DNA of 64,000 nucleotides from Chrysophaeum taylorii. Lineage: Eukaryota > Sar > Pelagophyceae > Pelagomonadales > Pelagomonadaceae. The notes below the pieces were generated by a model. It saw only the letters and a list, made by a program, of their open reading frames with translations, did no database searches and was not told where the DNA came from. The position numbers and the translations under genes are program-made. Positions 23,439 to 53,874 of the stretch are shown here, in pieces. The stretch spans positions 1 through 64,000 of the forward strand of contig JAQMWT010000573.1 in the NCBI GenBank assembly GCA_029834535.1, written 5' to 3'. Each line of letters starts with the position of its first letter. Position 1 is the first letter of the stretch.

Positions 23439-25028
23439 TCAAGTGGTGGGAGTGGTGGCCTGGGGTTCTTTTTGTTCTTGGTCCGAAGCAGAAGAGAGGT
23501 TCGGTTTTCGGAGGGGGTTGAGCACGGAGGTAAATTTGGCGTGGATCGCGTCGTCGACTTTTTTGAGAAGTTTTTCGAGGTTTTCGTTGGACTCCCACTC
23601 GATGAGATACTTGTTTTGGGCGGGACACTTGCAGAGGTAGGCGGCGTGGCGGAGGCAGACGACCTGGGTCTGGGAACAGTTACAGGCAACCGCCGAGCAG
23701 AAACAGGTGTGGCGGCAGACGACGCAGACGCGCTTGTCGTCGTAGTCGGAGGCCGCGTTGTCGATCTTGTCGGTGTTTTTTGGGGGCGCGATCAAACCGG
23801 AGACGTCGCGCACACCAGATTCGTAGAGTCGAGGCCGCAGCGTGAGCTCTTCTTTGCATATTTTCTCCAATTCCTGCTGGAGCAAGAGGCACTCGGCGTG
23901 GTTGTCCGAGAAGGTGTCTATCTGCTTGGCGAGCGTGAATATCAAGCGATCGTGAGAGAAAACGGCGAGGCGGCCGATTCTCCGGTACCTCTCGGCGGCC
24001 AAAGAAGCGAAGCGGATCCAATTCGAAGTTGCGAAATTCACGGCTTCGCCGCAGTTAAAGCCGTACGAAAAGCCCGAGTGGAAGGCTTGAGGATACGTAA
24101 CCACAAACATCCCGGGTTTCTGGACGAGCCGAAACACCGGGACCTGGAGCGCTTTGAGCTTGGACGGCGAAAACATCGTGTTCAGGTTGTGGAGCAAGTC
24201 GGGGACTTCCATCAGCCGTTGCTTGTAAAAGCGGCGGACGACGTTTTCGAAGGCCGTCGCGTGCGACCCGGGAACCCCATACCACTGCTTCGGGGCGCCC
24301 ATGTGTAAATAATTTATCGACGCGAGGAAGTTGTCTTCGGTGTGCCAAGAAAAAGTCGAGAACAACATCCCCAAATACAGCCACGGCGCGTTAATCCCTT
24401 TCATCGAGATCTCGAAGTGGCGCAACAGGCTCGTTTTCGGAAGCACGTTGAGGTTCCACGGGTTGGTCTTATCTTTGCAAGGAAAACCGCTACCATACTC
24501 CTCGGTGTCGACGTCGTTCCCGTACTCGACCGTGCACGGCTCGGCGCAACCGTCCACTAACCGCCAATACTCGGTCTCCATGTTCTCCGCGTCGTGGTCC
24601 TTCACCCACGCGTCTAAAAAGTTGTCGGCCATCGCTTTGTAGTCCATCAATGCGTACTTCCGCCCCTCCTCGTAAGGCACCGACTCCTGAAGCCTCTCGA
24701 TCCGTTGGAGCTTCGTCGAGAATTTTTTCTCGTTCGAGAAATCTACGCAACACTCGTGCGCAAATTCCGGCGGCGGCACGATGCAGCAGATCCCAAACTT
24801 CTCGGCTTCGGGCCGAATCTTCTCGATAAACTCGAGCGGTCGCTCGAATTCTTGCTTCGTGGGCCGAAACGTCGGCGCCTCTGGAATCGGCAGCTTCGGC
24901 AACGACTTTTCCTGCCGCGAATTCGCGATCGCCTGCTGATACAGCTCCTCCTCGCGGTTCGACACGCTCTGTTCGGACGAGTACTTCTCGGGCTTGACAC
25001 GCCTCCGCTTCGCACCCTGCTGCTCCAT
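23439..25028 (-). CDS. KDM5/JARID1-like JmjC histone demethylase
   Basis: 529 aa. A basic N-terminus (GAKRRRVKPEK) is followed by JmjN (about 48-89, APTFRPTKQEFERPLEFIEK), JmjC (about 195-345) and a C5HC2 zinc finger (about 435-475, CVVCRHTCFCSAVACNC and VCLRH). Iron ligands H229 and E231 (FSWHTEDNF) and H317 (AFHSGFSYGFN) are present, as is K247 of APKQWYGVPG for 2-oxoglutarate. YLHMGAPKQWYGVP and FSHDRLIF match KDM5 and plant JMJ14-type enzymes, which remove methyl groups from H3K4. There is no ARID, PHD or PLU-1 region, so it is a minimal form. ATG 25028 is the first Met. All catalytic residues are present, so activity is likely. Confidence 0.9.
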   Translation of the reverse strand: MEQQGAKRRRVKPEKYSSEQSVSNREEELYQQAIANSRQEKSLPKLPIPEAPTFRPTKQEFERPLEFIEKIRPEAEKFGICCIVPPPEFAHECCVDFSNEKKFSTKLQRIERLQESVPYEEGRKYALMDYKAMADNFLDAWVKDHDAENMETEYWRLVDGCAEPCTVEYGNDVDTEEYGSGFPCKDKTNPWNLNVLPKTSLLRHFEISMKGINAPWLYLGMLFSTFSWHTEDNFLASINYLHMGAPKQWYGVPGSHATAFENVVRRFYKQRLMEVPDLLHNLNTMFSPSKLKALQVPVFRLVQKPGMFVVTYPQAFHSGFSYGFNCGEAVNFATSNWIRFASLAAERYRRIGRLAVFSHDRLIFTLAKQIDTFSDNHAECLLLQQELEKICKEELTLRPRLYESGVRDVSGLIAPPKNTDKIDNAASDYDDKRVCVVCRHTCFCSAVACNCSQTQVVCLRHAAYLCKCPAQNKYLIEWESNENLEKLLKKVDDAIHAKFTSVLNPLRKPNLSSASDQEQKEPQATTPTT

Positions 25029-26113
25029 CTGTCAGTGCAACTCGCCTCACAACGGACCTATTCACATATCTGCCGCCGCCGCCCTGTGTCTGTGTCTGTG
25101 GATTGGACTGGATTTTTTGCAAAATTATTGTTTTGTTTATACACCGACCGCCCTCTTCGTGTCGTCGAGGTGTCTCGCCTAGACCAAGAAGCCAATCATC
25201 CGTCTCGACTGCAGTACTGAGGCGGCGGCGCGTGTGTTCTTTGGAACTCCTCCTTCTTCTTCTTCTTCTTCTTCTTCTTCGAGGCTGGATGGAGGGCCGT
25301 CCCGGCGAGAAGTGGCAATTGCGGCGGCGGCGCCGGCGGCGGCGGCGGCGGCTAATAATAATTAAAAAAGCTCTGTTTGTCAATAGGCGTCGACTTTCAT
25401 AGTCCTGATGACCTCGACATAAAACCACTTCGTCTTGAGAGTCGCGTCACAGTCAGAGGGGGGCGAGAACGAGTCGGGCTTATCGTCCACGACCGGCCCT
25501 TTTTTCGCAAAAAAACTCTCTTAGCGGGCTATTAAAGGGTTATTTATTCCACCACGAGGCCCTCTTGGCACATGATTGATTCTCTATGCTTCTAAAGGTG
25601 GCAAGGAGCAAGTCGGGGCCGCGCTGTTGGCAGCGACGTTGGCGCCCGGCGCTGCGGTGAACACGGCGGCAAACTTGTCGACAGAGTATGTCCGTCCAGA
25701 ATAGCAGTTATCCATTCCATGCCAAACTCGAGCAATTGGAGTCGGCGTTGAGCAGCTTTTTCGATAGTCGCGGCCAGCTTGGAGACGGCCCTCAACATGC
25801 TTAAAGTCAGCAGCAAAAAGCGTCGCGCGCCAAGCGGCGGTCGGGCCTGCTTCCTGCTGAAAACAGTGTCTTGTTGAGTTTCGTCGTAAGTTGTGTACCT
25901 CAGCAATGTCAGACGACGTGTCAGGCCATCGTTAGTCGAAGGCCCGGAGCTTCTGGAGACCGTCTCGCGACGCGAACCGCCGTCGCACCTCTTTCGAGGC
26001 GCTGCTTCTCTTCCTTCGCGAGCGCATCGTCCGGCGCAATGCGCAGGCGCGTTCCCATCAACACTTTCCTTCGACAATCTGTGAGCCAGCAATGAATTGA
26101 GAATAAAAAATAT
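25029..26113. other. No gene recognised
   Basis: Upstream region of the demethylase gene with (CTT)n (about 25253-25280) and GGC-rich (about 25320-25352) runs. A 166-codon minus-strand frame at 25592-26092 has no recognisable features. The region ends in the A-rich target site of the first Copia element. Confidence 0.5.
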
Positions 26114-28142
26114 TGTGAGAACTGAAATGGGGATGTGAGAACTATAATGGGGACGTGGTGCAGGGGTAAGTGTGCTTCCTCACACAGGTGCTGGAAAAGA
26201 AAGAAAAAGAAAAAGGGGTAAGTGAGACGCTTACAGAGGAGAAGCTCTTGAAGGAAGACGTCAGGAGAGGCATTGTGGCAGAAAGAGACATGAGATATCG
26301 GGCGAAGTCACGAGGTGAGGTAACGAGCACGAAGCCGGAGGAAGGAAGGAGCTTCCGTACTGCGGGTGAAGATATCGCTAAGGTTGTCAAGGTGGGGAAT
26401 GTGTTGGAGATCAATGATGTGGTTGCGATGATATTCGGCGGTGCTGTAAAAACGAATATCAATATGGCGGGTGCGCCGCGTGAGACATTGGAGACGGACT
26501 TGGGTGACGGTGGTTCTGTGGTTATCGACGTACATTGGTAGTACCGTGTGACGAGGGAGAGCAAAGTCATCAAAAAGTTTGAGAAGCCAAGAGAGCTAAG
26601 CAGTAGCGGCGTAAAGAGCGAGCAATTGAGCTTCGAAAGAGGAGCGGGCGAGGAGGTACTGCGAGCGTGAGCAGTAGGATATCATAGAGCCAGCAAGGAG
26701 AAAACAAAAGTCAGTAGTGGAGTGGCGGTCATCAGGGTCGTCGGTCCAGCTGGAGTCGGAATAACCACAGAGACGAAGGGTAGAATCGCGACCAAGAACA
26801 AGGGCAAGAGCCGGAGAACCGTTGAGATAACGCAGAGTGTGGGATAAAGCGTGCCAGTGGGGTTTACCAGGATTGTGTGAAAAACGCGCACACTGATTGA
26901 CGGACCAAGTGATATCAGGGCGAGTCATGATGGAGATAAATAAAACACAGCCAACAATACGACGAAAAGGGATGCGTACCATGAAGACGTGAGCAGGGGA
27001 GTCAGGTGCAGGAGAAGCAGCCGCAGAAAGAGGAAGAACTTTGGGAGCGGGAGTCAAGTCTGGTTGTGCGCGAGCACGCGTAATGCGGAGACCAACGTAA
27101 GTGGTCAGATCAAGCTCGTTGACATCAGTGAAGGTTCGGAAACGGAGGAAGAAAGCTTGGTAATGACCAAGGCAAGAACGAGAGTGCGCCACAAGAAGAT
27201 CATCAACGACAAGAACGAGTCGTAGGACAACGGTAGAATTAAGCTTGTAACGGCAAGTGTCACCAGATCCGCGGACGAAGCCACAGTCATTAACGAGAAA
27301 GCGTGCCAAATAAAGCCACCAATTACGACAAGCTTGTTTGCAACCATGCCAAGAGCGACGGAGCGTGTAAATGATTTTGAAACCATCGGTGGGTTGGCGA
27401 GGAGCATAACCTTCGGGTGGCCAGACATAGATGTCTTCGTCAATGGGAGCTTGGATAAAAGCGGAGCTGACATCCAACTTATGCAAATCCCAGTCGTGAA
27501 CAGCAACGCCAGACAGGGGCTTGTATGAAAGCAGAGATGACATCTACAGGACCTTACGTGTCGTGGTAAGCAATGCCGTGAACCTGGGTGTAACCGCGGA
27601 CAACGAGATGAGCAGTGTACGATTTGAAGCGGCCAGATTCATACTTCGTGCGGTGGACCCACTTCAAAGGGCAGATGGTGCCAGAAAAATGAGAAGGAAC
27701 GCGAACAACATATGATATTCTTTGGCAAAGGCTTGTAACCGACGTGCAGGATTTGGATGGGCTGGGCGAGACAGAGGGGAAGGAAGACATAATGAACTAA
27801 CAAACGAAAGCTAGAATAATTAACGTACAGGGAAGGACAAGATGACACAGAATCGAAGGGAATGACAAGATGACACAGAATCGACAGTGCGTGGTAAAGC
27901 GCCAGTATTGGGGGTTTGAGTTGACTCTCCATTTGTTTCTGAATAATGTGCGCTTTTTGTCGACTTTGCGCAGTCGGCTCCGTTTGGCACGACTTTGTTT
28001 TGCATGCTTTTTGTTTTGCATGCTTGTTGTTTTGTCGGCTCTGGTTGGCTCGACTTTGTTGTGCACGTTTTGTTGTTTTCTCTCTTTGGTTCGGCGGAGT
28101 TCATGAGCTCGTAGAATGGTCGGTTCACGTGATGGGGTGATC

Positions 28143-28434
28143 TAACTAACTAACTAACTTCAGACCTCTCCCGAGCATGGGAGCCAGGCCGGACCGACAG
28201 GAGCCAGTCCGGAATCACGGGCCTGTAGACGAGGAGCGCCGAAAGGTCGGTCGGCGGAGAGTGACCATCAAGCTTGTCGCCATGCGACGAGGAGACTGCG
28301 ATGTGACTGACAACCAACTCGTCGATAACCTTCCGTCTTCGCCCCCCGGCCATACCCTGTCCCATTGCGAACGTTCCGGCTGCCAACCGGCCCGCCCGGG
28401 AGGCGAATATGTGCCAACCTACGCCGGGAGGGCG
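28143..28434 (-). mobile_element. LINE-like fragment inserted in Copia element 1
   Basis: Nearly identical to 18415-18715, with the same (TTAG)n 3' tail on the minus strand. It is 5'-truncated 21 bp earlier. The 4-bp duplication GATC lies at 28139-28142 and 28435-28438. The related Copia 2 shows the empty site (GGTGATCAGTCCC at about 51575), so the junctions are exact. Confidence 0.75.
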
Positions 28435-29974
28435 GATCAGTCCCAGTGAAACCGGCGCATTCTCATCAAACACAGGGGACAAGGGGGCAACAGCGGAAGA
28501 ACAGGTGACAATCGGGCAACAGTAGACGAGAGCGCGTGATTCGAGAAAGTCGGAACAACGTTGAAGTTCCGGTGGTTGACATTGGAGGAAAAATCTGATA
28601 AGCGAAACTGTCAGCAAAATCGAGGTCTGAAGAACAATAGCGACAAAAGTGCCTGGGAAGACTTGCGTTAAGCGATTGTTGCCACTGAGGATCGCAGCGG
28701 GGTAAAGATAGCGGGAACACAGGCTGGTATATATGATGGCAGTGTACCAGACGTCTGATGAGAACGTGGCCTTTGGGCAGATATGTTGCATGGTGCATGG
28801 TGACCAGGTTACGTTGCATGGTGCATGTTGACCAGGTTATGGCGATGGTCGGAGTCGACAGAAGCAAAAACAGGCGTAAACAGGTTTGATGCGAACGTAG
28901 GTGTTTGGTTGTTGTGGTGCGAGCAAGTTGCCATGAGCACGACCGCGTCCTGTACGCGAAAATGGAAGACTTCGGACGCGCCAGCGGTGTAAGGAACGAA
29001 CACGGGTAGACCAGGCTGCTGTATGCCAGCCTGCTGTGGCAGATAAGGAAGTGGCCCGTTTTCGCATTCGCAAGAACGAAGTTGCCATATGGGCCAACGT
29101 TGGAGGAGCAAGCGGCGAGCTTCGCTCGTCATACTCGAATAGACTGCGGTAGAAGTTGGCGATAGTGGCAAAACAGTTGTGGCACGTAAGAACGTTGCAG
29201 ATAGCGTCGCAGTGCTGAGCACGGAATTCACTGCGATAGCAAAACCGGATTTTAAATGTCAGAAAAGCGGCGAAAAGGCGATAGTGCGCGAAGGAGAACC
29301 ACAAATCACACAGCAAAGAAGCGTCTGTCCAGGATCCCGAAGATGAGCGATCCAACCACATAGGAAGCACGAAAGCTACGCACGCGAAAAATTGACAGGC
29401 ACAGCTTGGTTGTGGCGGGTGAAATGCGCGATGGAACGTGATTCGCCGGTTTTACCAGAACCGATAAGCACGAGGAGTGGATCAACGAATAGGTGAAAAT
29501 GCACAACGGGGAGTGGATCAACGAATAGCAGAAAATGCACAACGGGGAGTGGAGCAACGAATAGGCGAAATACAGAACGAGGAGGGGAGCAACGACGAGG
29601 GAGGTGAAAATACAGAACGAGGGGTGGAGCAACGAATAGCGGAAAATACAGAACGAAGGGCGCCTGTGCAATGGGAGCTAAAAACAAAAACGAGGGGCTT
29701 CCACAAAAACACTTTTCCTTCACAAAAACGAGGGGCTTCCGTGGGATGGGGTTGTTGATGTGCTTGCATCAGAAAATCGGCGGTACACACGCTGACTTGG
29801 AATTATCTTGATTGGCAGAAAGGTGCAAAGATGTGTAATAGGTGGTGGTATTAAGAAAATCGGCGGAGTGGAACTAGAATCAGTCAAGGTTGGAGTAGGC
29901 ATAGGAGCAGAAAAGGTAGTGTTACTGGTGTTGGTGTTGGTGGGTTGGTGTTGTTGGGTGTTGTTGGAGTCATT

Positions 29975-29990: not shown

Positions 29991-30841
29991 TTGGAGTCAT
30001 TGGGAGTGTTGCGCTGTTGAGAAGAACGGCGATGGTGGGTAGGGCGTTGTCGTGGAATAGCTAGGAACTTTGAAACTTGCGGCAGTCCCCCTTAAAGTGA
30101 TCCTTGCAGCCGTCAAAAGGACATTGGGTAGTGCGTCGGAATCGAGTAGAGCCAGGTTGTTGGGAAAGGGGAGCGTCTAGGGTAGGTCAGTTGGAAGAGT
30201 CTGAAGTCGTGGCTGACGACGCGGCGGATAGCGCGGCGGAAGTGGTTGTGCATGCCATCTAAATTGATTGTTGTTGAATTTCTCAAAGGTACAACCACAG
30301 TCGTCGGTACGAAACGCGAGACTATAAAACAAAGCCAGAAAGGCTTGAAGCACGATGCACGTAGTCAAATGCGAGGACACACTCGAGGGTACGTCGGATC
30401 AGGTACAATGCCGAGCAACTTGAACTCTGGTGATTGGTACAATGCCGAGCAACTTGAACGCCGGTGATAGGTACAATGCCGAGCAACTTGAACTCCGATG
30501 ATGAACTTGTTGAGGAAGTTCGCTACGCGATCCCCATGGCCCATGTAGACATCGGTAATGCGCTTGTAAAGTCGCGTGAAGTTCATGTCGCGGTTTTCAT
30601 GGATATCAACGTTGTTGCTTGACGCGAAATTCGCCTTCAGAGCAGCGAGATGCTGAGAAAATCTGCTTCAGACGAACACCTGCTACCATGTGAGAACTGA
30701 AATGGGGATGAGAGAACTATAATGGGGACGTGGTGCAGGGGTAAGTGTCATAGCTTCCTCACAAATATAAAGAACAGTAATTTCAACTGTGTTACCCTTC
30801 ACCAGAGCGTGAGAACAGTGGTAGTCTATCCTCTCGATTCT

Positions 30842-32208
30842 GTCTTTAAATGTCGACTGCTAAGAGGGGGGTGTGTGTGGGGAGCATGAAGGATGTGGGT
30901 GGGTTTGTGGGGTATGAGGGATGTGCCTGACGGGCGGAGATAAGTACGCGGGACCTAGTCGGGGTCATCGCCGAGGCGTGGGGCAGACGAAGAGAGGACG
31001 GGCCCCGCCCGTAGGTCGTACGCATGCTGCCGCCGGACGTATGTGCGACGAAGGGTGACGTCCTGCTGGGAGCGGGCGGCCTGGGTGGGGTTCCCCGAGG
31101 CGGCGACATGGGTGAGGGCGGTGAGGGCACAGCGAGCCCGGCCTAATGCGTTGGCGATGCCCCACTCACGGTAGATGCGGCGAGTTTGGGCCGCCTTTGC
31201 CTCTGTGAAGTTGGCGCAGCCGCTTGCCACCCAGGTTCGCATTCTGTCTCCTCAGCGAGCCAGACATTGATCCTCCAAGCCGTCTACGGCGACCTCGCAG
31301 ACTATTTCCACGACCCGCGGCGGCTCTTTCAGCGCGCCATTCTCACGCCCCGTCGAAACGATGTTGTCGATGCTGACAACGTGCGCATGACCGCGGCCTT
31401 TTTTTCCCGGAGACGAGGCGTCGGAGTTCTTTTCGGCCGACTAGGTTGGGTCGGAAGACGACGCCTCGCTCTTCACAGTCGAGTTTGCAACTCCCTGACA
31501 ACCAACGGCATGCTGACTTTGATCGCGAGCTTAAAGTCTTCGCAACCTCGACCCGTCGCACGGCCACTGCAACGGTACCAGATACATGATCGATCGTGTC
31601 GTGTCACCGAGGCTCCTCCAACCTGTATCCCTTAAGGCCTGCCGACGCCAAACGATCAACAAGAGCCAGGGCCAGACGCTCCGCGAGGTCGGCGTCCTCT
31701 CGCCCAAGCCCGTCTTCTGTCACGTCCAGCTCTACGTGGCTCTCTGTCGATCGGCAACCCCGAGGATGTGCTCTTCTGAGTCGACGACTCCACCCTACCC
31801 CACACGTGCTGCGCAATACCGATAAGCCCCCTCCCGGCGTCTACACGCGCACTGTAGGTGAACTTACTGGGACCAGGTGAACTTACTGGAACCAGGTGAA
31901 CTTACTGAGGTTAGAGATTGGGACTAGGTGAACTTAGTGACCAGGCGAACTTACTGGGACCAAGCGAACTTACTGGGATTTTTAGAGTAAACTCAAAGGC
32001 TAGCGGCGTGTGCGGATCAAAGCAGCTTAGACTGGCGGGGGTGAGAGCGACGAGTTCAAAGGGGAGTGAGGTGAGTGGATGTGAGCACGAGTGGGTTTAC
32101 GCCGAATTTATTGGGGTTAGAGATTGGGACTAGGTGGACTTACTGAGACCAGGTGAACTTACTGGAGTTAGGGATTGGGGCTAGGTGAACTTACTGGCCT
32201 GCACTTGT
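30842..32208 (+). mobile_element. Helitron relic, copy 4, inside an LTR
   Basis: It begins in the CTTTAAATGTCGACTGC block and ends GCACTTGT at 32208, splitting the left LTR of the methyltransferase-bearing Copia. An R1 coding remnant lies on the minus strand (30855-31240; ANFTEAKAAQTRRIYREWG). The helicase C-terminal part is the best preserved in the window: AVYGDLADYFHDPRRLFQRA (31270), RNDVVDADNVRMTAAFF, and TINKSQGQTLREVGVLSPKP followed by HVQLYVALCR (31646-31760). These are the PIF1 Helitron signatures. The 3' minisatellite follows. The helicase is split by frame changes and lacks its N-terminal half and any Rep domain, so it is non-autonomous. Confidence 0.8.
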
Positions 32209-35200
32209 GTGAATTAATAACACAGCGTTTTCTTAAAATCAAAGGGTGGTAAAGTTAAGGGAACTAACCCTAGAATAGGGGGTACTAACCCTAATTCAGA
32301 TTTTCTATCTCTACGCCCTCACAGATTGAACTCGGTGAGCGAATTCTGGATCAAACTAAACAGGAAGCGTCTTGCCAGCGACAATAACATAGATATTGTT
32401 CTGGACAGAGTCGTACGGTGGGAGAGTGGCTGAAAAAGTAACGTGATGAGATGGCGGTGAGGAGGATGTTGAGTGAACACCGTAGGCGTTTTTGAGCTTG
32501 TGGAATAAATTGCGTGGAAGGAGTTTCGAAAAATGATCAGCGACCTGGTAGTGAGTAGGACACCAGAGAGGTCTAATGATCGAATTAGCTTGGTAGTCAC
32601 GAATGCGAAATTCTCGTAAATTGACATGACGAGAAGGAGCACTGACTTTAGGGTGATTAGCGACATGTAATGGGCTAGCGTTATCAATAAGCAGGGGAAT
32701 AGCGTGAGCTTGATCACACGAAAACAGATAAGGGTGAGAGGAGAAAAGCTTGTAAAACCAGTGACATTCATCGGCGGCTGCGCTGGCGGCCATGAGTTCA
32801 GCTTTCATGGTGCTTTTGGCAGTAAGAGTTTGTCGTTTGCTAGACCAAAATACGAGATTGCCCATGACGAAGATACATGCACCAGAATTGGATCGCAAGC
32901 GAGGGTCAGAACGATCAGCAAAACTTGCATCAGTAAAACAAATAATAGGTGAACGAAGGTGATGCAGTTCAGGATAGCGGTTGATCAGATGCTGAATAAA
33001 GGGGGTAATAGAGGGGCTGTCGGATGAATAGTCGAGGGAATCAGTCGGAGTACCCTTTACGTAGCGAAGTAAAACAAATAAGTGTAGAAGTTGGGTCTGA
33101 TCAGGGTTGTGCATGCCCTTGCAGCATTTGTTGCACAAAGTGGTGATATGAGGCCGACATGTGACAAGAAAGGATCTGATGTTGTCATGCCATGTACCTT
33201 TGCCATATTCCTTCTCCAGAGCAGTGCGAAGGGATGTTATTTTGGCAGTGTTGGTACCAGTGATCAATAGGTCATCGACTGAAACGGATAGTAGAACCCA
33301 TTTGTTGATAGATCGATCCCAATTGATATAGAGGCAAGTGTCGACTTGTGAGCGTTCGAACTCATGTTGTCGAAGAAACGAGTCGAGTTTGATGTTCCAC
33401 AACAAAGCTGACTGTTTGAGGCCATATAGAGCCTTGACGAGTCGGAGAGCGAGCTTCGACTCTGGATGGTTCTTCTGTATCTGCTGGATAAGATTTTGCG
33501 AGACACGTATTCCTCGAGGGAAGTCGATCCATACTGGGCGATCGAGTGCCGATTGGATGAATGCCTGAGGAATGTCCGCGTGCGCGACCGGGAGCTTGTG
33601 CTTCACAGCGATGGCGAGCAGTAGCCGGTTGGTGGCAAGCATTGCGGTTGGGGAGGATGTGGCATAAAAGTCAATGCCTACACGTGCCAAGAAACCTCGG
33701 GCGACTAGACGAGCTTTATAGCGGCCTGGAGTGCCGTCAGCAAAATACTTGATCTTCAGCACGAGCTTCGTCGAGATAGACGAACGGTCTGGCGGTAAAG
33801 GTTCAAGTTTAAAGACACCGTTGGAGCACAGTCCTTCAATTTCTTTATGAATCGAAGCGGTGCGCTTTAACTTATATTCTTCGCTGAGTCCTTTGAGTTC
33901 GACAATCTTTTCAGGCTCGTAGACAAACAAAATCTTCAGCGGTCACGAGCTGTAACACGACGTGATCGATGTGCTGCAAGTCATAGTCCATGGCTTCTTG
34001 GAGAATATCTTGATTCGGATCACTTTGACTTAGGAAGAGGTGTCCGAGTTCGCCAGAATCATGCATGAAGGCATGCCTGTGCCGAGAAGCTAGGTGGTAG
34101 TGCTGATGCGCGGAGATGTCCCACAAAAGAGAGGAACCCATACAACAGAGCTCTTGGTTCCATTGACGCGCATAATACTCTGCCGGTGACAGGTCGTCGT
34201 GGCATACATAGTTTTCGAGAACAGAATTGTCGTTATCGAGGTGATCAACCAATACAGATGAGTGGTGCGGCTTCCTTGGGAAGTCAACATACAAAAGTTC
34301 TGCGTCGGTTTCTCTCTGCAAATCCAGTGCGGTGCCGCCCATGATACCATAGTCTTGTGTGGCACTTGCTAGGAGACATCCTTTCGGGATATCATTTGGC
34401 GGCTTAGCATCTCTTCGAATATTCAGATCAGATGCGATGCTGGCGGCGTGGCCCTGGTGAAGAGCGCTGACACTGATGAGGAACATCAATGCGCTGGACA
34501 TGTTGGCTGTGGTATGAGCCGTGGATTGCTCCTGCTGGTATCTCCAGTTGCGACCATACTCTGAGGCGATAATGCGTCTGGTGAAGAGTTTTCCATCGTC
34601 AACACGTTTCACGATATAGAGTTGATCCTCAGGGATGCGAAATCCACGTTCGTCCTTGAGATCTGCTTTGAGCTTATCGCTCTGGTTGCGATGCACGAGA
34701 ACTGGGGTAAAACCTGAATCGTCGAGAACAAGCTCTAGGCGATCTTTTTGTTTGGACATCGGAATGCTACCATCCGGCGGGAGTGGCCGGTTGAGGAACG
34801 AAAAATCCTGTTCGGGTGTCTCGTCGCTGACGGGACTTGAATCAGCAGCGGGAGTTGGATCCAGTTCTTTGTGTTCGTCGTCATCGCTAGGTTTATCATC
34901 CTGCTCGTCATCGTGAGTCTCGCCCTCATTTTGCGATTCCTGTCTAACTTCCGGCATTTGCTGTTCGCTTATAGCTGGTAGCGGGTCCTCTTGCCGTGCC
35001 TCTGTTGGGATCTGTGCGAGTGCTTTGATCCGTTCGATCTCCTTGTTGCGGTTGACTGGCATGTCTGCGTCAACATGAAAGTCGTTAGAGGTAACGATAT
35101 TTCCATATCGCCCCTGATGTACAAGCAAAGATGGAGCTGTGAACATCACGGATAAATCGGTCCGTGCCGGGGAGGTTCGGGAGATAGTTGTTACTGTGAA

Positions 35201-36309
35201 AGTAAGAGGCGGAGACGCTGGAGGGTTCCAGCTTGTGACTTTGAGGGTAGACAAAAGTGACAGGTTCGCCAAAGGGAAGGAGCTTCAAGAGCGGTGCCAT
35301 GGGTGACATGATGCGCCGGGGAACGGTGCATGCCAAGTTTGTGCGCGAGGGCAGTCCATGAGAGCGCTGGTTGTCGGCTTGGATCTTATGCAGGAGAGCA
35401 AATGGATGATAATACTCGGCGGCAATAGACTTTCCTTCGATGCGTACACTGCGAAGGTTGAGGAGACGAACTACGGCGCCTCGGGTGTCTTGAAACTGGA
35501 TGCCAAGTTGCACCTTGAGGAGGTGGAAAGCTTCAGAGCGGAAAGTTGAGAATGCATCAGACGATATGATTTTCACACTGACATCGAATTCGACCTTAAT
35601 CACATTGACCGCATAGAGGATGCCGGCCAGAACATCCTTTTCCGCAGGAAATAGACCCACTTGTGTGCAGAGATAATACACACGAAGTGCATGATGTAAC
35701 GAAATCCACCGTAGCACTTGCTGACGATCGGGTACGATACATCCATGTGGAGGTGTTGGCCAGGAGCATAGGTCAGTTCATCCTGTGACCAGGAAGTGTT
35801 CTTGTGACGGAAGCTGACATGCGATTGACAACGCTTGCATTCGCTGCAGTCTTGCAGATACCGATCATCACCTGGGCGAAGATTCGTTACATTAGCGGCA
35901 ATCGTGCGGCGAAGAATCTCTGGTTGCTGGTGGTGTATTCGGTGCCACCGAGTGACCAAAAGCACTCTTTTGGCGTGCTGAATGGTGCCGTGCTTGTGCA
36001 AGGGAGGCAGAGCAGCAGTCGAAGCGCTGGGGGGGCTGGGTCGCTTGTCGACTGGGATTTTAGCGACGGTTGCCTCGGCAAGAAGCGTCTCGAGGTTTTT
36101 CGATTTGCGTGGTTTGCGGATCGCATTATGGTGAGCATCTGCTATGGCATTGAAGAGGGAGGTGAGGTTGAGGCCCTCCTCTGCTAAGAGACGGCTGGAG
36201 ATGCTCATGAAGAAGACTGCAACCTGGGTGATGTCTCCTGGGCTGGGGATGCCATTGCGTATTGTTGCCCATTCGATGTGAAAGTTCACGTGGTGGTGCG
36301 ATTCGTGCA

Positions 36310-37370
36310 GTGCGAGAACAGCGCTGTACTTTGCCTGCAGCATATTGTGCGGGACGCCGTTGGCCAGTGCCTTAAACGCGAAGTACGGCGGGTGCTGTTG
36401 GAACAGACGGAGCAGTTCTGGGTCCGAGTGGTGTCCAAACTTTGCGATTTCGTTGAGGGTCGCATAGCGGATGTGGTCTGGAGAGATCAGCAGCAAGGCG
36501 TTGGAGTAGCTCGTGTTGGTTGGGTACGAGCCAGTGACCGAGTAACACTTGGTGCTTTTCTGAAGCGTGTCGCCGATGTGGCCGACATAATCCGCATAGA
36601 TGGGACGGGCTTTGGACATTATTAGTCCCGTGGGGTCATCGAGAGTAATTCGCCCTCGTGAGTCGATCGCGGCAAAGCCAGGATGCGAACGATTCATATA
36701 GTGGACCCAAGTAGCGGGGCACTGTACACGAAGGGCGGGTTTGGCGATCCAGAGATCGTCAGGGATGGTGTGAGTGGGGTCCAGGAGAGGAACCATGCTC
36801 GGAGGCGAGGTTAACCAAGTAGAAGCGGTTTTCTCGAGGTTGTAGCCGGTGAGCGGGTGTCGGGCATACACAGCGAGATAGCGTGTCTTGCTGATGACGT
36901 CACCAAAAGCAGAGGCATTATAGACACCGGAGTGTCGGAAGTAGCCTAAGCGCTGATAGCCTTTTGCGAGTTGAGCATACTCGTGATGAGTCCTTGGGTT
37001 GGGAGGTACGTTCTCGACAATGGCGTAGGTCGGGAGCGTGCAACGAACAAAGCGGATTTGTTCTTGGACAAAAAGATCGGCGGTGACCGGAGTGGCATAT
37101 CCCTCGTATTCTTGCATTACACTTAGATGTTGACAGGGCAATGTAAAAACTGCCAAGTCGAATGGAGGTAGTCGTATTCTGCCGGTTTGGAGGGCGGCAT
37201 TGAGTTTCCTTAGGTCCGCATAGTGCTGAGCGTGCGGAAAGAGTTGTTGCGCACGGGTGCGCATAATATGGTTAATTTCGCAGGTGACCACGACAGTAAG
37301 GCGTTTGTCGAATCGTTTGCGAAAAGTGTCGAAACCTTCTTGGTGAAGTCCACCTGCAATAATGGCTGTT
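36310..37370 (-). mobile_element. C5-cytosine DNA methyltransferase domain within the Copia polyprotein
   Basis: About 350 residues inside the fossil element's open frame (35600-37726), between protease and integrase. Motifs in order: AIIAGGLHQEGFDTF (motif I, SAM loop), TCEINHIMRTRAQQLFP (motif II/III region), FTLPCQHLSVMQ (motif IV, with the PCQ catalytic Cys), YAIVENVPPNP (motif VI, ENV), GYFRHSGVYNASAFGDVISK then TRYLAVYARH (motif VIII), a target-recognition-like stretch, RYATLNEIAKFGHH (motif IX-like) and ALANGVPHNMLQA (motif X). Order and spacing match Dcm/DNMT enzymes that methylate C5 of cytosine. Methyltransferases captured by retrotransposons are known from a few other protists/algae. 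The likely role, inferred, is marking the element's own DNA. Confidence 0.8.
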
Positions 37371-40324
37371 TTGAGCGGAGGGGGTTGTGCTTGCACAGAG
37401 AGGGCTGCGGTGCCATTAAAGGCGTAGTGGACGACAGTATGTTGGAGGTTGAGCAGTTCATTTGAATACATGGAATGATTCTGTAGCTTTGCGAAATCAA
37501 GCGTGTGCGATTTAGAGCGTGTCTTGGCGACATGCTGTGTGATGTGTGCAATCTCATCCTCGAGTGACATTCGTTTTCTTGTGTGGAAACTAAGCACAGT
37601 TGTGAATGTTTGCTTTGGATGGGACGGCAGGGACAACAGGCCGTTAGGTTTGCGAGTGGCGAGTACGACGGCGGTTTTTCCTAGAAGAGTCTTATAATCG
37701 TGCGGATCGAAGGTGGAGGACTTCATAAGTTCGTACAGTTATGGCTCGTGGGGCAGTGGCGGATCGGTGGCTTGTACATGCAGGGCTTTGAGCTGAGATG
37801 TTGCGATAACTTGGAGACCTTGCCTGAATTGCGGGACGACCATAAATACGAGATATAAAGCGTAACCGGTTGAGTCTTTTGTATCCTTTGAGGAGAGACC
37901 TGCAGCCTGCAAATACAACGGTTTAACACCGATGAAGTGGCTGGTAAGGGTGCCTCGTCCCATATGAATGGTGTGTTCGGGAATCCGGCGTATGGACTCA
38001 GGAACAAAGTGTTGTATTGAGCGCGTAAAGCAAAAAGATGCGCCACTGTCAATCAATGAAGTTTCAGTGCCGGGTCCATTGCATCCGTGCAGCGAGTTAG
38101 TCTGCTTTGAGGTCTTTCCTGGAGTGTAAGTTGCACAAAGAAAATCTGCGACTCTGGGTGAGATGGTTGATGATGTCGGGAAATTCGCCATCTTGAGGTT
38201 TGGTGCCTGATTGCGTAAGATGTGGTTGGCGGCACAGGCGTCGTCGGCAACCATCAGCGAAAAAGCCGACTCTGGTGGAGAGCACGCATATAGTCACTGT
38301 GGCGTTGTGCATAGTCTTCGGCGGAGTCATCTTCATCATTGATTTCGGGAATGGTGTCGTCGTAGAGGTCTAGCTGACCGTTGTCGTCATAGAAACCGAG
38401 GTGTCCTTTTTCGTCTTGTTCATCGGTTTCGGCTTCGCCCTCATCAGGTGGATCGTCCTGGGGATCTGACGTCAACATCTGGAGAAATATATTCTGCGGC
38501 ATCGTTTTCGGCTTCGGAGAGAAGTATCTCGTCGGAGATGGTGGTGATGAGGTTGATGAGCTTGTTCATGCGCTCGGAGCTTGACGTATGTTGGCGACCG
38601 GCTTGACTAAGATTCCGCATGGTTTGGAGCTTGCGACGGACTTCACGAAGGGGGACCTTGAAGCGCTGGTCAGGAGTAGATGGTTTGGGTGGATGAGGTT
38701 GTGTGGGAAAAGTGACCTTGCGAAGATGCGGGTGCTCGCGTTTGTCAGGGGTGACAGGAGGAGCACGGGGACGTTGCTTGTTCTTCGTTGGGGTGACAGG
38801 AGTAGCCTTGGGCTTAGGACTGGCATTGATGTCGTAGTAAGACAGGGAGCGAGGATTTGGAGGCTTTTTGTTAGGAGGGGGCTTTCTGGGCGTGCCGCGA
38901 AATTTGCTTTTTGCGGTAGGCGTGGAGTTGGTGAATGACGTCATTGTCTTCGCCGTCGTGGTCAAGGTTGGCCTCCGTGAGAAAAACAGCGACGGGGTCG
39001 GTGTCTTCGTCGGGATCCGGTGGGGTGTCATCTTCAGAGGGAGAGGTATCATCATCGTCTTCGGTGAAGTGGAGACCATGACGGCGGGTGCGAAAACGTG
39101 GATTGTCTTTGTCTTAAGTCGGTAGACGACCAAAGTCAGTGACGAAGCGCAAAGGCTTGAAGTTGAGAGTTGGGTGAGGCTTGAGGTGAGCCCAAAAGTT
39201 GCGCTCAAACGTGGAGATGACTGTGATGCGGGCGATGAGCTTGGGAAGGTGGTTGATGGCTTCTTTGTCTTCGTCGAGTAACAGCGAGTCATTGGGAGTG
39301 CGCAGACAGTTAGCAAGACGTGCGAAGCCCTTGATGTGTGTTGGGGCGCGGGAGTCAAGCAAACTTGGAGGGTACTTAAAGCGAAGCAGTTGGTGGAATT
39401 TTTCCTCGAGAATCTTGTCGTCTGAAAGTTGGAGAGAAGCGTCGTTTGTTATCTAGCGCAGTTGCTGCTGGACACGGCGCATATATTCAATATAGTGCGC
39501 AGGCTCTCGTGGATCTCTGGGTTGAACGGCGTGTCCAGGAAGGCATTATAGACGTAATGCGCATGGTGGACGTGGTTCTGGCCCGTGTGCTTGTCGAGTG
39601 CTAGGCGAACTTAAAGCACAAAAAATTCGAGTCCTATCGGATAGGAAGATCCGAGTGCATCGATTTCGTTGTATGCTGGGTGCTTGACGGAGTCGCTACC
39701 GGCATGTAGGAAACGGCGAAAGAGGGGGTGCACGGTCTCGCGGAGATATACGATGAAGTCGGCTTCTTTTCCTTGGAGATGAGTTTGGGTGATCGGATAC
39801 AACTTGCCTTTTGTCATATCGGTCGGGTCCTTGTCTTTATCTTTAAGTTCTTTTGGAGCTTTGGCTCGTAGACGTTCGCCAGGAAGTGTTTGCCGAACTT
39901 GCGGTAGACACCCTTGTGGAAGACGTAACGGCCTTGGAAATCTTGCGTGTTCCCTCCCGGCGGTAGAGTGGTGGTCGGGGTCCTTGTCGTATTCGTCGAT
40001 ACAGTGGCTTAGGAGAGCGTCAGCGAGATCATTTATAGATCCGCGCAAGACGGATAACCACGTGTAGAAGCCCTGTAGGAGGTACTGAGTTATACCTGTT
40101 TCAGGCATCAGATGTTCGACGAACAACTGCATGACGCGAAACGAAAGCATTTGGGGTGTGACTTGCGCGTTGTCCATTGACTTGAGGACGACGGCGCTTG
40201 GTGGGTCACTAAAGGTATTAATTTTGGTCTTGGGATCTTGCTGAGCCGGAGTGGGAGGTGGAGCCGCAACAGCGACGGCAGGTGGTGTGCTTGCACTCGG
40301 GCGGACAACGCGTCTATTTGAGCC

Positions 40325-40552
40325 ATCCAGCGAGCTTCTTATTCTCGAATCTCCTTTTGATGCTTGGCTTCTAAGCGAGCTCGCTTCTTGTTCTCGAATC
40401 TCTTTTTGATGCTTGGCTTCTAAGCGAGCTCGCTTCTTGTTCTTGAATCTCCTTTTGATGCTTGGCTTCTAAGCGAGCTCGCTTCTTGTTCTCGAATCTC
40501 TTTTTGATGCTTGGCTTCTAAGCGAGCTCGCTTCTTGTTCTCGAATCTCCGT
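40325..40552 (-). repeat. 51-bp tandem repeats in gag-like region
   Basis: Four to five near-perfect 51-bp units. On the minus strand they read KKRARLEAKHQKEIRE-like 17-residue repeats, predicted to form a charged coiled coil in the gag-type protein of the methyltransferase-bearing Copia. Confidence 0.75.
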
Positions 40553-40878
40553 TTGGAGTTCTTGATTGGTTAGCATTTTGCTTGGGTTCAGGAACGTCAG
40601 CGAGCGGGACTCGTCTGGAAGTCCGGAGGCTCTGCTGATACTGGTGCCCAATACCTAGAGAACAGTAATTTCAACTGTGTTGCCCTTCAGCAGAGCGTGA
40701 GAACAGTGGTAGTCTGTCCTCTCGATTCTTTCTCCTAAACGAGAGGACACGGGCGGTGTGAATTAATAACACAGCGTTGTTTTCTTAAAATAAATCAAAG
40801 GGTGGCAAAGTTAAAGGGACTACCTACCCCTAGAATAAGGGCTACTAACCCTAATTCAGATTTTCTATCTCTAAAAAA

Positions 40879-41859: not shown

Positions 41860-43413
41860 TCAGTGGCCCAACCGCAGACAAGTTTCGCGTGGTTTGGCCT
41901 TACAGCACCCTCGATTGCGCCTATGCAAACACCTGCAGCTTGGCCCGGAGATAAGAGTCTTGCTCTCGAAAGCTCCCCGTTCAAAAAAAGGAACGTGGAC
42001 AACGTCCCAGCCAATCCGGGACTTGAAGCGCGTCGAGCCATCCTCAACCCTCGATCTCCCAAGGTAGTGGAATGGCCCGTCGACTTCGACCGCGCGCTTG
42101 GTGTCGGGTTGAGCCATGTCAAGCGACAATCCCTCTTCGATCACGTGCTCAAAGACGTGCGCCCAGCCAACTCGGTCGAGCGCGGTCACAACGTCGCGAT
42201 GGAGTTGGGACGGTGATGGGCCCTGACGTTTTGGAGCCACCAGGAGTAGTTGCCGGTGGTTTGAGCTCCGGTCGGGCCACTCAAGCGTAGTAAAGTGCAA
42301 CGAAGCAAGGTGGAACTGCGACAAGCCGCGATCGTCGAGGGTATTGAAATCAATCTTCCATAGCAATGGAGGCAAGCTCGGCAAAAAACTTAGGGTCCTT
42401 ATTCCAGTCGACGCAGGCAAACGCCCACACTGTGTTCGCGAGGTCCTGGGGAATGAACCCACCAAGCCGCGACCGGGCCGCCAGGGCAATCGCGTCGAAG
42501 AGCTGAGGTGCCTCGACGCGTGCCGTCCCGAATGAATGCCCACGCAGTGTTGGCGAGGTCCTGCAGATTGAACTCGCCAAGTCGCGGATGAGCCGTGTCA
42601 GCGATGGCCGCATAGAGATGAGGTGCCTCGATGCGCGCCGTCGCGAATGCCCAAGCTGTGTTGGCTAGGTCCTGCGGATTGAACCCACCAAGCCGCGACC
42701 GGGCCGCCAGGGCAATCGCGTCGAAGAGCTGAGGTGCCTCGACGCGTGCCGTCGCGAATGAATGCCCACGCCGTGTTGGTGAGGTCCTGCGGATTGAACC
42801 CACCGAGACGCGATGAAGCCGCGTCGGCGATCGCCGCGTACAACTGAGGTGCCTCGATGCGTGCCGTTGCGAAGGCCCACGCAGAAGCCGCGCCGGCGAT
42901 CGCCGCGTACAACTGAGGTGCGTCGATGCGTGCCGTCGCGAAGGCCCACACCGTGTTGGAGAGGTGCTGCGGATTGAACTCGCTAAGCCGCGAAGGAGCC
43001 GTGTCCGCGATCGCCGCGTACAACTGAGGTGCCTCGACGCGTGCGGTCGCGAAGGCCCACGCTTACACGTGAGCGAGGTTCCGCGCATCGAACTCTCGAA
43101 TGCGGTGCCAACAAGCGTCTGCGAGGGCCATCACACGGCGATCGCGTTGCGCGTCGCGGTTCTGGCCTCCAAACTTGGCGACGCGGTGCGCGGCAGCCGC
43201 CAAACTCCGAGCGCTGAATTCGTCGCCACGAGCCGCGAAGAGTGAGAGAATCGTTTCGGGAGTCGCACCGCGGCCCGTCATCTGCTTCCCCCATTTAATT
43301 TGTTGCCAAAGCGGTGCCTCGGCACTGATGGGTCGAGTGTGGCTCGAGCGAACGCGACAGTCCGCGGCGTAGCGGGCGCCGCTGCGGCGATACGTCTCAC
43401 CCCCTTGTCGCAT
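41860..43413 (-). pseudogene. OPR/RAP-domain protein pseudogene
   Basis: The minus strand starts near 43413 with an N-terminal region (LWQQIKWGKQMTGRGATPET). It continues with several copies of a 35-40-residue helical repeat (FNPQDLANTAWAFATARIEA, QLYAAIADAASSRLGGFNPQ) typical of algal octatricopeptide/FAST-like RNA-binding proteins. It ends in a RAP domain (VGWAHVFEHVIEEGLSLDMA, AVEVDGPFHYL, GWDVVHVPFFE). Such proteins usually act on organelle RNA. The repeats change frame several times (for example between 42540 and 42780, and near 42880 and 43070), so this is a pseudogene. Splicing is unlikely, as breaks fall inside repeat units. Confidence 0.75.
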
Positions 43414-49250: not shown

Positions 49251-52200
49251 TGTTACGAATGGTATGAGGCGTTAGACTAGCGATAAGAGAAAGACGTAAG
49301 GATACTGGATACGTGGTGGTGCAGGGGTAAGTGTCATAGCTTCTTCACACAGGTGCTGGAAAAGAAGGAAAAGGAAAAAGGGGTAAGTGAGGTCCTCACA
49401 CAGGTGCTGGAAAAGAAGGAAAAAGAAAAAGGGGTAAGTGAGACGCTCACAGAGGAGAAGCTTGAAGGAAGAAGACGTCAGGAGAGGCAGTGTGGCAAGA
49501 AAAAGAGACAACGGAGATCAGGGCGAAGATCACGAAGTGAGGTAACGAGCACGAAGCCGGAGGAAGGAAGGAGCTTCCGTACTGCGGGTGAAAATGTCGC
49601 TAAGATTGTGAAGGCGGGGTATGTGCTTGAGATCGATGATGTGGTTGCGATGATATTCGGCGGTACTGTAAAAGCGAATGTCAATATGGCGGGTGCGCCG
49701 TGTGAGACATTGGAGACGAACTTGGGTGACTGTGGTGCTATTATCAACATACATTGGGACCGTGTGACGAGGGAGATCAAAGTCATCAAAAAGTTTGAGA
49801 AGCCAAGAGAGCTCAGCAGTAGCAGCGTAAAGAGCAAGCAATTCAGCTTCGAAAGAAGAACGAGCAAGTAAGTATTGCGAGCGGGAGCAGTAGGCTATCA
49901 TAGAGCCGCTGAGAAGAAAACAAAACCCAGTTGTAGAGTGGCGGTCATCAGGGTCGTCGGCCCAGCTGGAGTCGGAATAACCACAGAGATGAAGGGTAGA
50001 ATCGCGACCAAGAATAAGGGCAAGATCCTGAGTACCGTTGAGATAACGCAGAGTGTGGGATAAAGCGTGCCAGTGGTGTTTACCAAGATTGTGGGAAAAA
50101 CGCGCACACTGATTGACGGACCAAGTGATATCAGGGCGAGTCATGATGGAGATGAAGAGGACACAGCCAACAATACGGCGAAAAGGGATGCGTGCCATGA
50201 AGATGTGATCTGGAGAACCAGGAGCCGGACAATCAGCCGCAGAAAGATGAAGACCTTTGGGAGCGGGAGTGAGTTCGGGTTTACTGTTGATGAAGCGATG
50301 TTCGGTAAGGATTTCACGGATAGCATGGGATTGGTCAAGAGTGAGGGTTCTCCGAGGGCGATCACGCGTAATGCGAAGACCAACGTAAGAGGTGAGATCG
50401 AGTTCATTGACGTCAGTGAAAGCGCGGAAACGGAGGAAAAAGGCTTGGTAATGGCCAATGCAATGAGGAGGGTGCGCCACAAGAAGATCATCGACGACCA
50501 AAACAAGACGGAGGACCACGGTAGAATTGAGGACGAGCTTGTAATGGCAAGTGTCACCAGATCCGCGGACGAAGCCACAATCATTGAGAAGGAAGCGCTC
50601 CAAATAAAGCCACCAATTACGACAAGCTTGTTTGCAACCATACCAAGAGCGACGGAGCTTGTAAACGATTTTGGAACCATCGGTGGGTTGGCGAGGAGCA
50701 TAGCCTTCGGGTGGCCAGACATAGATGTCTTCGTCAATGGGAGCTTGAATAAAGGCGGAGCTGACATCCAACTTGTGCAAATCCCAGTCATGAACAGCGA
50801 CAAAGGCTAGAAAGAAACGGATCGTGACAATGTTGGCAACCGGTGAGTAGGTGTCATGATAATCAATGCCGTGAACCTGGGTGTAACCGCGGACAACGAG
50901 GCGAGCCTTGTACGATTTGAAGCGGCCAGAGTCATACTTCTTGCGGAGGATCCACTTGAGGGTACAAATGTTGCCAGAAAACGTCGAAGGAAGGCGCATA
51001 ACATCCCAGCAACCAAGCTGACCAAGGAAGCTATACTTTTTAGCGATGGCTTGCAACCAGCCAGGACGCTCAGGATTGGTCGGAGCTAAAGCTTCACGTA
51101 AATGGGTGGAAGTAATAGTGGATTCGTCAAGGTCGGAATATTGCGACAGTTCTTCGGAAGCAGAGTAATAAACGTGTGCATGAGGATCAACAAGGGTGTT
51201 AGCTAAACAAAGGGGAAGGAAGACATAATGAACTAACAAACGAAAGCCAACAGAAGAGACATACAAAGAGTTACAGGGGAAACAGAAGCGACAGAGGAAA
51301 CAGAATCAACATCGTGACAGGAGGAAACAGAATGGCCCGTATCAACATCACAAATGGCCCGTATCAACATCAGAATGGCCCGTATCAACATCAGAATGGC
51401 CCGTATCAACATTGTGACAGGATGAAACAGAATGGCCCGTAAAAAAAGTTTGTTGGTTGTTGTAACGCGCGTTGGTCGACTTTGCGCGGTCGGCCCCGTT
51501 TGGCACGACGTAATGGTGCACGTTTCGTATTGGCCGGTAACAATGTATTCAGTGACGGTTGAGTGGTTTGTGGGGTGATCAGTCCCGATAAGGCCGGCTC
51601 CGGAGCATCAAAAACAGAAGATATTGGGGCTACGGCCGAAGATAAACGAGGGTCGTAATAAAACAAGTCAGGAAAACGAGAATCCACTAGAGACGGAGGA
51701 AGGGGTTGAGTGGACAGTGACTTACGCAGAGCGAAATTTTCGTCAAAAACAACATCAATCGAGGTGTGGATGACAGGACCTGTGGGGCGTTGAAGCAATA
51801 TGCGATATCCAGGGCCTGCAGAGGGATACCCAATGAAGATACCGGTTATAGCTTTGGTAGGCCATTTGTCGCCAGTAAGAATTGCAGCAGGACAGCCCCA
51901 AACACGAAGAAAATCGACACGCGGGAGTGTTTCATGTAGCATTTCATATGGCGTCATATATCCAGGATTAGAGGCATTTGGCATACGCTCAGAGATGAAG
52001 TCAGCCGTTTCCATGGCCCAACGCCAAAAATCAGGTGGACGGTGCGCATGTACCAAAAGAGTGCGAGTAATATCCGCGGTTGCGCGATGAGAGCGTTCCA
52101 CAACACCGGAAAAAGCATGAGCCTGTGAAGTTTTGGACTGTGCTGCCGGAGCGCGCCGAAGCGCAATATTGTTGCCCAGACAGAAGGTTTCGAATTGGCC

Positions 52201-53874
52201 CATAAGAGAGCGGTCACGATCGGTGTAGATGAGGGCAATGCGATATCCGAATGGGCGAACCACGGTAGACAGAAAAAGTTCGAGTTGTCGAGCGTTCGTA
52301 AGGGCATCGTGTCGTGGAGCAAAGTAACGCGTGCGGCGGCGCGTATGATCATCGACAAACGTGAGCTTCATGGGCCAACGTTGGAGGAGCAAGCGGTGAG
52401 CTTCGTTCGTCATACTCGAATAGACTCCGGTAGAAGTTGGCGACAGTGGCAAAACAGTTGTGGCACGTAAGAACGTTGCAGATAGCTTGCAGATAGCGTC
52501 GCAGTGGCACGTAAGAACATTGCAGATAGCGTCGCGGGTGCTGAGCACGGAATTCACGTCGATAGCAAAACCGAAATTTAAAGGTCAGAAAAGCGGCGAA
52601 AACGTGCGTGAAGGAGAACCACAAATCACGCAGCAAAGAAGTGTCTGTCCAGGATCCCGAAGATGAGCGATCCAACCACATAGGAAGCACGAAAACTGCG
52701 CACGCGAAAAATTGACGGGCACAGCTTAGTTGTGGCAGGTGAAATGCCCGATGGAACGTGATTCGCTGGTTTTACCAAAACCGACAAGCACAACGAGGAG
52801 TGGATCAACGAATAGGTGAAATACAGAACGAGGAGGGGAGCAACGACGAGGTGAAAAGACAGAACGAGGAGAGGAGCAACGACGAGGGGAAAATACAGAA
52901 CGAGGGGTGGAACAACGAATAGCGGAAAATACAGAACGAGGCGCCTGTGCAATGGGAGCTAAAAACAAGAAAACGAGGGGCTTCCGTGGGATGGGGTTGT
53001 TGATGTGCTTGCATCAGCTTGGAAGAGTCTGGTGGCTGACGACGCGGCGGATAGCGCGGCGGAAGTAGTTGTGCATGCCATCGAAATTGGTTGTTGTTGA
53101 ACTTCTCAAGGGTACAACCACGTTCATCGGTACGAAACGCGAGACGATAAAACAAAGCCAGTAAGGCTTGAAGCACGATGCACGTAGTCAAATGCGAGGA
53201 CACACTCGAGGGTGCGTCGGATCAGGTACAATGCCGAGCAACTTGAACTCCGGTGATAGGTAAAATGCCGAGCAACTTGAACGCCGGTGATAGGTACAAT
53301 GCCGAGCAAATTGTATACTCCAATGATGAATTGAGGAAGTTCGCTACGCGATCCCCACGGCCCATGTAGACATCGGTAATGCGCTTGTAAAGTCGCGTGA
53401 AGTTCATGTCGCGGTTGTCATGTTGTTCGCGTGAAGTTCATGTCGCGGTTTTCATGGATATCAACGTTGTTGCTTGACGCGAAAGTCTTCTTCAGAGCAG
53501 CGAGATGCTGAGATGCTAGTCCAAGGATCGTTGGTCGAGATAATGTGATCACCGGTGGAAATGATCATGTTTTCCAGGCGCCGGGTCCATTGGTGAAAAA
53601 GATGTCGCTCACCACTGAAAGCATCGAGTTTTTGCGAAAGCTTGCTATCCTTAATTTCGATCGAGGACATGATAAACGATAACGAACCGAACACGTGGCA
53701 ATGAACTGAAGCCGATGAGGAGTCGCTGTTGTCCGTGAAGTCAAGCTCAGGTCGTTCGGCCTTGAACACCTGGTACCATGTTACGAATGGTATGAGGCGT
53801 TAGACTAGCGATAAGAGAAAGACGTAAGGATACTGGATACGTGGTGCAGGGGTAAGTGTCATAGCTTCTTCACA
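49251..53874 (-). mobile_element. Copia-type LTR element 2 (fossil, young)
   Basis: LTRs 49251-49349 and 53779-53874 are identical apart from one 3-base length difference. They run TG...CA and are flanked by AGGGG (49246-49250 and 53875-53879). Next to the right LTR the minus strand reads TGGTACCAGGTG, a likely primer-binding site. Parts on the minus strand: gag-like region (about 52600-53770), integrase (about 51430-52370; FVDDHTRRRTRYF, LIYTDRD), then reverse transcriptase and RNase H (49530-51266; DVSSAFIQAPIDEDIYVWPP, LVVDDLLVAH, YADDPDDRHSTTGF-like). Broken, with a few breaks; the polymerase part looks long and well kept. Near-identical LTRs mean recent insertion. It is a close relative of Copia element 1. 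Confidence 0.9.

Follow-up and report, generated by a model that had tools for sequence, protein, structure and literature searches.

The 64,000-nt stretch analysed here (the window; positions 1 to 64,000 of contig JAQMWT010000573.1 of the pelagophyte Chrysophaeum taylorii) contains on its minus strand a broken long terminal repeat (LTR) retrotransposon, in whose pol frame a first-pass annotation, made from the sequence alone, had placed a C5-cytosine DNA methyltransferase (DNMT). We assign this element with very little doubt to a distinct Ty1/Copia lineage, with the pol order protease, C5-cytosine methyltransferase, integrase, reverse transcriptase (RT) and RNase H. Throughout this lineage the methyltransferase belongs regularly to pol and is under purifying selection.

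Along the minus strand the order is gag, protease, DNMT, integrase, RT and an RNase-H-like region, the last assigned by motif (Table 1); the aspartic protease thus lies upstream and RT/RNase H downstream of the DNMT, as first annotated. The DNMT domain matched the profile PF00145 with 33.2 bits (cut-off 22) and has the C5-cytosine methyltransferase fold. Using Pfam profiles, the RT was found to be of the RVT_2 type (E=6.6e-38; 1.6e-38 in the sister copy L025, see below), with the integrase upstream, and the replication module is not that of a Gypsy, DIRS or LINE element. Ordinary Ty1/Copia elements likewise have LTRs, an RVT_2 RT, an integrase before the RT and RNase H, but differ in carrying no DNMT. 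With M.HhaI-type C5-methyltransferases the domain shares the fold and motifs IV, VI, VIII, IX and X in order, whereas those are free-standing bacterial enzymes with about 18% identity to it.

Sister copies and metagenomic relatives

A search of the genome with PF00145 gave 57 rows above the cut-off, two of them host genes. We read 20 loci in addition to the window and placed the remaining 36 rows by coordinates, 24 being at or beside places found in the DNMT search described below and 12 elsewhere. The two best rows (L009 and L010) were the non-Copia genes, and rows 3–20 were further copies (L011–L028), which were read in 10-kb stretches. Protease and DNMT pieces were present in all 18 and gag in 17; the later integrase or linker part was seen in 15 copies and an RT, weak in one of them, in 13. 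LTR sequence was seen in 15 of the 18, and the outer flanks were unrelated in the 10 that were aligned.

One of these copies, L025, has an uninterrupted frame of 1952 aa that spans protease, DNMT, integrase and RT, with a DNA_methylase match (E=1.1e-7) and with the HHCC, Asp and Glu motifs of the integrase upstream of the RT in the same frame, although its rve match (residues 1016–1110, E=0.0061) was below the profile cut-off. Using the L025 DNMT as query we obtained 91 match rows, which by our count mark some 81 genomic places, a lower bound because 81 of 773 candidates were scored; the window copy is not among the matches listed, and two of them (C10 and C297) are apparently one copy represented twice. 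Sixteen of the 91 matches run from positions 1–4 to position 535 without a stop. The L025 RT gave 149 match rows. A further locus, L032, yielded an RT piece only, and one further DNMT match (L031) looked spurious when read.

A more distant element, L029, has an RT about 40% identical to that of L025 and a homologous stretch at the DNMT place (24% identity over 353 residues, E=5e-21), where Cys, Glu and Arg are in register and their neighbours differ (ECT, EEM). A second copy of it, L030, is 84–90% identical across this stretch. We regard L029 and L030 as a sister lineage within the same genome.

Relatives elsewhere were sought using the L025 RT region as query; there were 1261 hits, of which 120 were listed. 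In seven of these 120 the precomputed Pfam assignments include DNA_methylase as well as RVT_2. An N-lobe profile of the DNMT, made from L025 and five of these pols, matched 15 of the 120 (E<1e-8), ten of which are independent finds since five had been in the profile. All 15 were within a set of 21 RT-similar metagenomic pols, and none of the other 99 listed relatives matched; the two host genes were matched weakly (E 1.5e-4 and 7e-4). When seven pols were scanned with Pfam, five showed DNA_methylase, ahead of the integrase-related domains (where seen) and the RT, and a protease motif (D-S-G-A) was seen by eye ahead of the DNMT in P0003, P0009 and P0022. The initial assignment of a C5 DNMT to a Copia-type pol frame, between protease and integrase, is borne out by the long L025 frame, by its many matches in the genome and by metagenomic relatives having the same order.

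In an RT tree of 41 rows, with 16 of the 99 other listed pols as outgroup, a single clade (100/99) united the window element with L025, L029 and all 21 pols, apart from those 16 and from an ordinary Copia of the window. Six of the 21 clade pols (P0005–8, 12 and 19) gave no DNMT match; they are 1087–1362 aa long and may either lack the domain or be cut; if they are counted as a group, the DNMT label requires three changes on the tree.

The DNMT tree included eight references, of which six came from phages or bacteria, two were the host genes and none was a DNMT3. Fourteen of the 17 lineage DNMTs grouped together (99/98), separate from host, phage and bacterial enzymes, whereas P0022, P0024 and P0025 fell weakly among the references. 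A single DNMT origin was not rejected (p 0.34; p 0.22 without three long rows), whereas holding the DNMTs of these three together with their RT sisters P0014 and P0016 was rejected (p 0.0033). This conflict between the two trees suggests that the DNMT may have been replaced in the P0022/P0024/P0025 sublineage, or else that long branches mislead. The P0022 and P0024 DNMTs match PF00145 almost to the profile end.

A separate capture of the domain, as first proposed, fits the published carriers we found, which are LINE, DIRS and Gypsy elements. According to PMC5890265, DNMTs are carried by SymbioLINE, SymbioDIRS and KnitGypsy elements, and Symbiodinium Copia elements lack one. SymbioDIRS-Dnmt3 and SymbioLINE-Dnmt of dinoflagellates are likewise retrotransposon C5 DNMTs under purifying selection, that of SymbioDIRS also lying within the Pol frame, but DIRS has a tyrosine recombinase and LINE an endonuclease. 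KnitGypsy-Dnmt3 of Klebsormidium nitens comes closer in being an LTR element with the DNMT inside the Pol open reading frame (Ka/Ks < 0.2), yet it has a Gypsy pol, a DNMT3-class enzyme and a charophyte host, as compared with a Copia pol and a DNMT between protease and integrase here. One line in section 5 of PMC12344493 names 'LTR Copia and DIRS' with DNMT3, citing the 2018 paper; as that paper reports Gypsy and the section describes no Copia element, we take this mention to be a slip, though its supplementary data could differ. PMC12477816 reports a methyltransferase of another kind, in a DNA transposon. In the literature searched, which did not extend to subscription papers and preprints, we found no account of a DNMT-carrying Copia element.

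Conservation of the methyltransferase domain

Among the 19 genome copies including the window copy, PCQ was kept in all, ENV in 18 (ENA in L015) and the motif VIII Arg in all, and L022 has no motif I. Over the lineage, catalytic Cys, Glu and Arg were kept in all 17 DNMTs (15 metagenomic pols, L025 and L029), and in a full-length alignment of 15 rows the only invariant columns of the DNMT part were these three and one Pro. Together with the profile matches and the fold, this lineage-wide invariance rules out a chance match of motifs.

The pooled ratio of nonsynonymous to synonymous substitutions (dN/dS) was 0.18 for the DNMT N-lobe, as compared with 0.15 for protease, 0.18 for integrase, 0.21 for RT, 0.17 for gag and 0.36 for the linker after the DNMT; all values are raised because many of the copies are dead.

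The window DNMT is about 175 residues shorter between motifs VIII and IX than those of its sisters. The motifs had been noted to occur in order and at normal spacing; the order stood, and the normal spacing stems from a secondary deletion in a subgroup in which this region is enlarged. The distance between motifs VIII and X is 348 residues in L025 and 312–334 in P0002–P0004, as against 158–174 in P0009, P0010, P0011, P0022, P0024 and P0025; no pattern match to motif X was found in P0014 and P0016. An H-x-D pattern seen by eye had raised the idea of a 2-oxoglutarate dioxygenase-like domain in the 175-residue stretch. Pfam gave nothing relevant, and BLAST left the L025 stretch mostly unaligned with P0002 and P0004 and aligned its end alone with P0003, so this idea was dropped and the stretch is treated as part of the enlarged VIII–IX region.

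Neither the window frame nor any of four DNMT domains found a match when searched against protein databases, no DNMT relatives were found in the viral contigs searched, and alignment to PDB sequences reached an E of only 0.16 at best. Single-sequence structure prediction had a pLDDT of 30. No DNMT3 chain was among the best 50 structure matches listed, which leaves room for a DNMT3 likeness.

Possible roles of the enzyme

DNMT5 is a maintenance-type methyltransferase, and DNMT2 shows that C5-methyltransferase folds can act on tRNA. Of the two host genes, L009 is DNMT2-like (best PDB match DNMT2, E=3.9e-39), lying beside a presumably light-harvesting-like protein, and L010 (C621) is DNMT5-like, with DNMT and SNF2 domains in one frame of at least 1910 aa. 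No host de novo DNMT stood out in the PF00145 list, in which 36 low-scoring rows of the 57 were unread. The maintenance type of DNMT5 draws some support from the reference list of PMC9998398, which names a paper on methylation that persists although a de novo enzyme has been lost.

The best overall explanation, to which we give an even chance, is a DNMT-carrying Copia lineage whose enzyme acts in cis on element cDNA; the mechanism taken by itself falls just short of that. The DNMT would be made as part of Pol and enter the virus-like particle along with RT and integrase, where the protease might free it or it might stay tied to the integrase. Its substrate could then be the double-stranded cDNA of the element itself, whose cytosines it would methylate while reverse transcription is under way, immediately afterwards, or in the integration complex, such that new copies would be marked already on entering the genome. 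Maintenance of the mark could fall to the host DNMT5, for which there is a likely gene in this genome. The element may benefit through protection of the cDNA, or through a silent new copy of low harm.

Several observations weigh against this explanation. The ratio of observed to expected CpG was 1.06 in the element, as compared with 1.20–1.32 for three flanks and, for two Copia copies of the window that carry no DNMT, 1.08 and 1.15. Transitions at CpG between copies (0.157) fell inside the range for other contexts (0.089–0.163). At fourfold sites, C before G differed by T in 0.130, versus 0.066–0.167 before other bases. Heavy CpG methylation of these copies is accordingly unsupported, while light or non-CpG methylation is compatible with the data; self-methylation, as first suggested, is here a hypothesis. 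Furthermore, the Pro and Gln of motif IV and the Asn of motif VI vary within the lineage, motif VIII has no Q-x-R-x-R such as is usual in the family, constraint is weaker on the two DNMT parts after the N-lobe (dN/dS 0.23 and 0.31), and the 19 copies used for dN/dS were picked by their PF00145 match and hence biased to intact DNMTs. Finally, when tested in yeast the DNMTs of SymbioLINE and KnitGypsy yielded no methylation, a result called inconclusive by the authors (PMC5890265).

The same lack of a CpG decay footprint would fit an enzyme that methylates RNA, either genomic RNA or the tRNA primer in the particle, thereby aiding stability, priming or template choice. The activity of the DNMT2 fold on tRNA speaks for this, as does the SymbioLINE result, for which RNA methylation is raised by the authors (PMC5890265); we nevertheless consider it unlikely. 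Just as unlikely is action in trans on the host genome or on rival elements, as discussed for Symbiodinium. The many copies and the lack of an evident host de novo enzyme would agree with it, but the DNMT forms part of Pol and nothing points to a separate product, and the CpG ratios of the three flanks argue against it. Slightly less probable again is a DNA-binding or S-adenosylmethionine-sensing part that steers the integrase, with catalysis dispensable. Such a role would suit the joining of DNMT and integrase in one frame and the variation of flanking motif residues, but is disfavoured by the invariance of the three catalytic residues while their neighbours change. A passenger, captured long ago and drifting without function, would account for the broken state of the window copy and many others; it is improbable in view of an N-lobe dN/dS as low as that of integrase and RT and the presence of the DNMT in all long pols of the RT clade. 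Insertion of Copia pieces into a host or bacterial gene, for which no supporting point was found, can be dismissed, considering the protease beside the DNMT in every copy read, the LTR sequence, the unrelated flanks and the shared order in metagenomic pols.

Cytosine methylation is usually regarded as a host weapon against retrotransposons, and here an element keeps the methyltransferase itself, retained through deep RT divergence in a superfamily for which the literature searched holds no description of one. Going beyond action in cis on cDNA, a tentative and rather less probable reading is that of a Copia lineage, deep and widespread among microbial eukaryotes, with a C5 DNMT as a core pol domain that defines the lineage (possibly replaced through a second capture in P0022/24/25), where the retrotransposon would be the host's only de novo methyltransferase, marking its own cDNA for DNMT5 to copy and so setting its own heritable epigenetic state. 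The word 'only' depends on the other C5 enzymes recognised so far, the DNMT2-like and DNMT5-like genes. Because a DNMT5-like gene is present and no de novo enzyme stood out, the system allows a direct test of self-started heritable methylation.

The window copy and its surroundings

The window copy is broken by split gag frames, the TAA between protease and DNMT, a frameshifted integrase and the loss of about 230 bp of RT relative to its sisters. Direct repeats at 30768 and 40656 are parts of LTRs of about 218 bp, the 3' one being interrupted by about 1.36 kb of foreign DNA, and their outer neighbours, compared by eye only for a target-site duplication, are TTTTT and TATTT. The foreign stretch (30850–32206) holds repeats, and similar DNA occurs in L017, L021 and L028. 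The primer-binding-site-like stretch presumably resembles the half-tRNA-iMet site of Copia elements. At the gag/pol junction the CTTTTTC run was seen in 18 of 19 copies (window and L011–L028) and the overlapping TGATG in 14; a frameshift or a stop-and-restart there could yield Pol.

Table 1. Features of the DNMT-carrying Copia element, numbered by position in the window
Feature	Positions	Strand	Basis or remark
5' LTR, ends TAGAGA...TCTCTA	40656..40873	-	Repeat search and alignment of copies
Primer-binding-site-like stretch GTATCAGCAGAGCC, adjoining 5' LTR	40628..40654	-	
gag region, several broken frames incl. 39614-40468, 39114-39452, 38257-38565	38257..40468	-	Matches 578-aa L025 gag frame
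gag/pol junction with CTTTTTC run and TGATG, in which stop and start overlap	38241..38268	-	
pol start with aspartic protease motif IDSGASF (38033-38053)	37742..38293	-	
TAA stop separating protease from DNMT	37739..37741	-	Open in L025
C5-cytosine DNA methyltransferase domain, motifs I to X	36311..37420	-	
DNMT motif IV TLPCQ, catalytic Cys	37130..37144	-	
DNMT motif VI VENV, catalytic Glu	37007..37018	-	
DNMT motif VIII SKTRYLAV, invariant Arg	36869..36892	-	
Integrase with zinc-binding HHCC and the region of the first catalytic Asp (HMDVSYP 35729-35749)	35639..35944	-	
Remaining integrase and linker after integrase	33926..35639	-	Frameshifted in window copy
Copia RT (RVT_2) and RNase-H-like region	32359..33942	-	
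3' LTR in two pieces, outer 30768-30849, inner about 32207-32313	30768..32313	-	Split by insertion

Elsewhere in the window, two decayed Copia elements lie at 26000–29700 and 49500–53300, in whose frames, read by eye, no DNMT was seen. A 530-aa frame at 23439–25031 (minus strand) is presumably a JmjC histone demethylase-like protein, and the frames at 42350–43294 contain repeated QDLANTAWAFA-like units.
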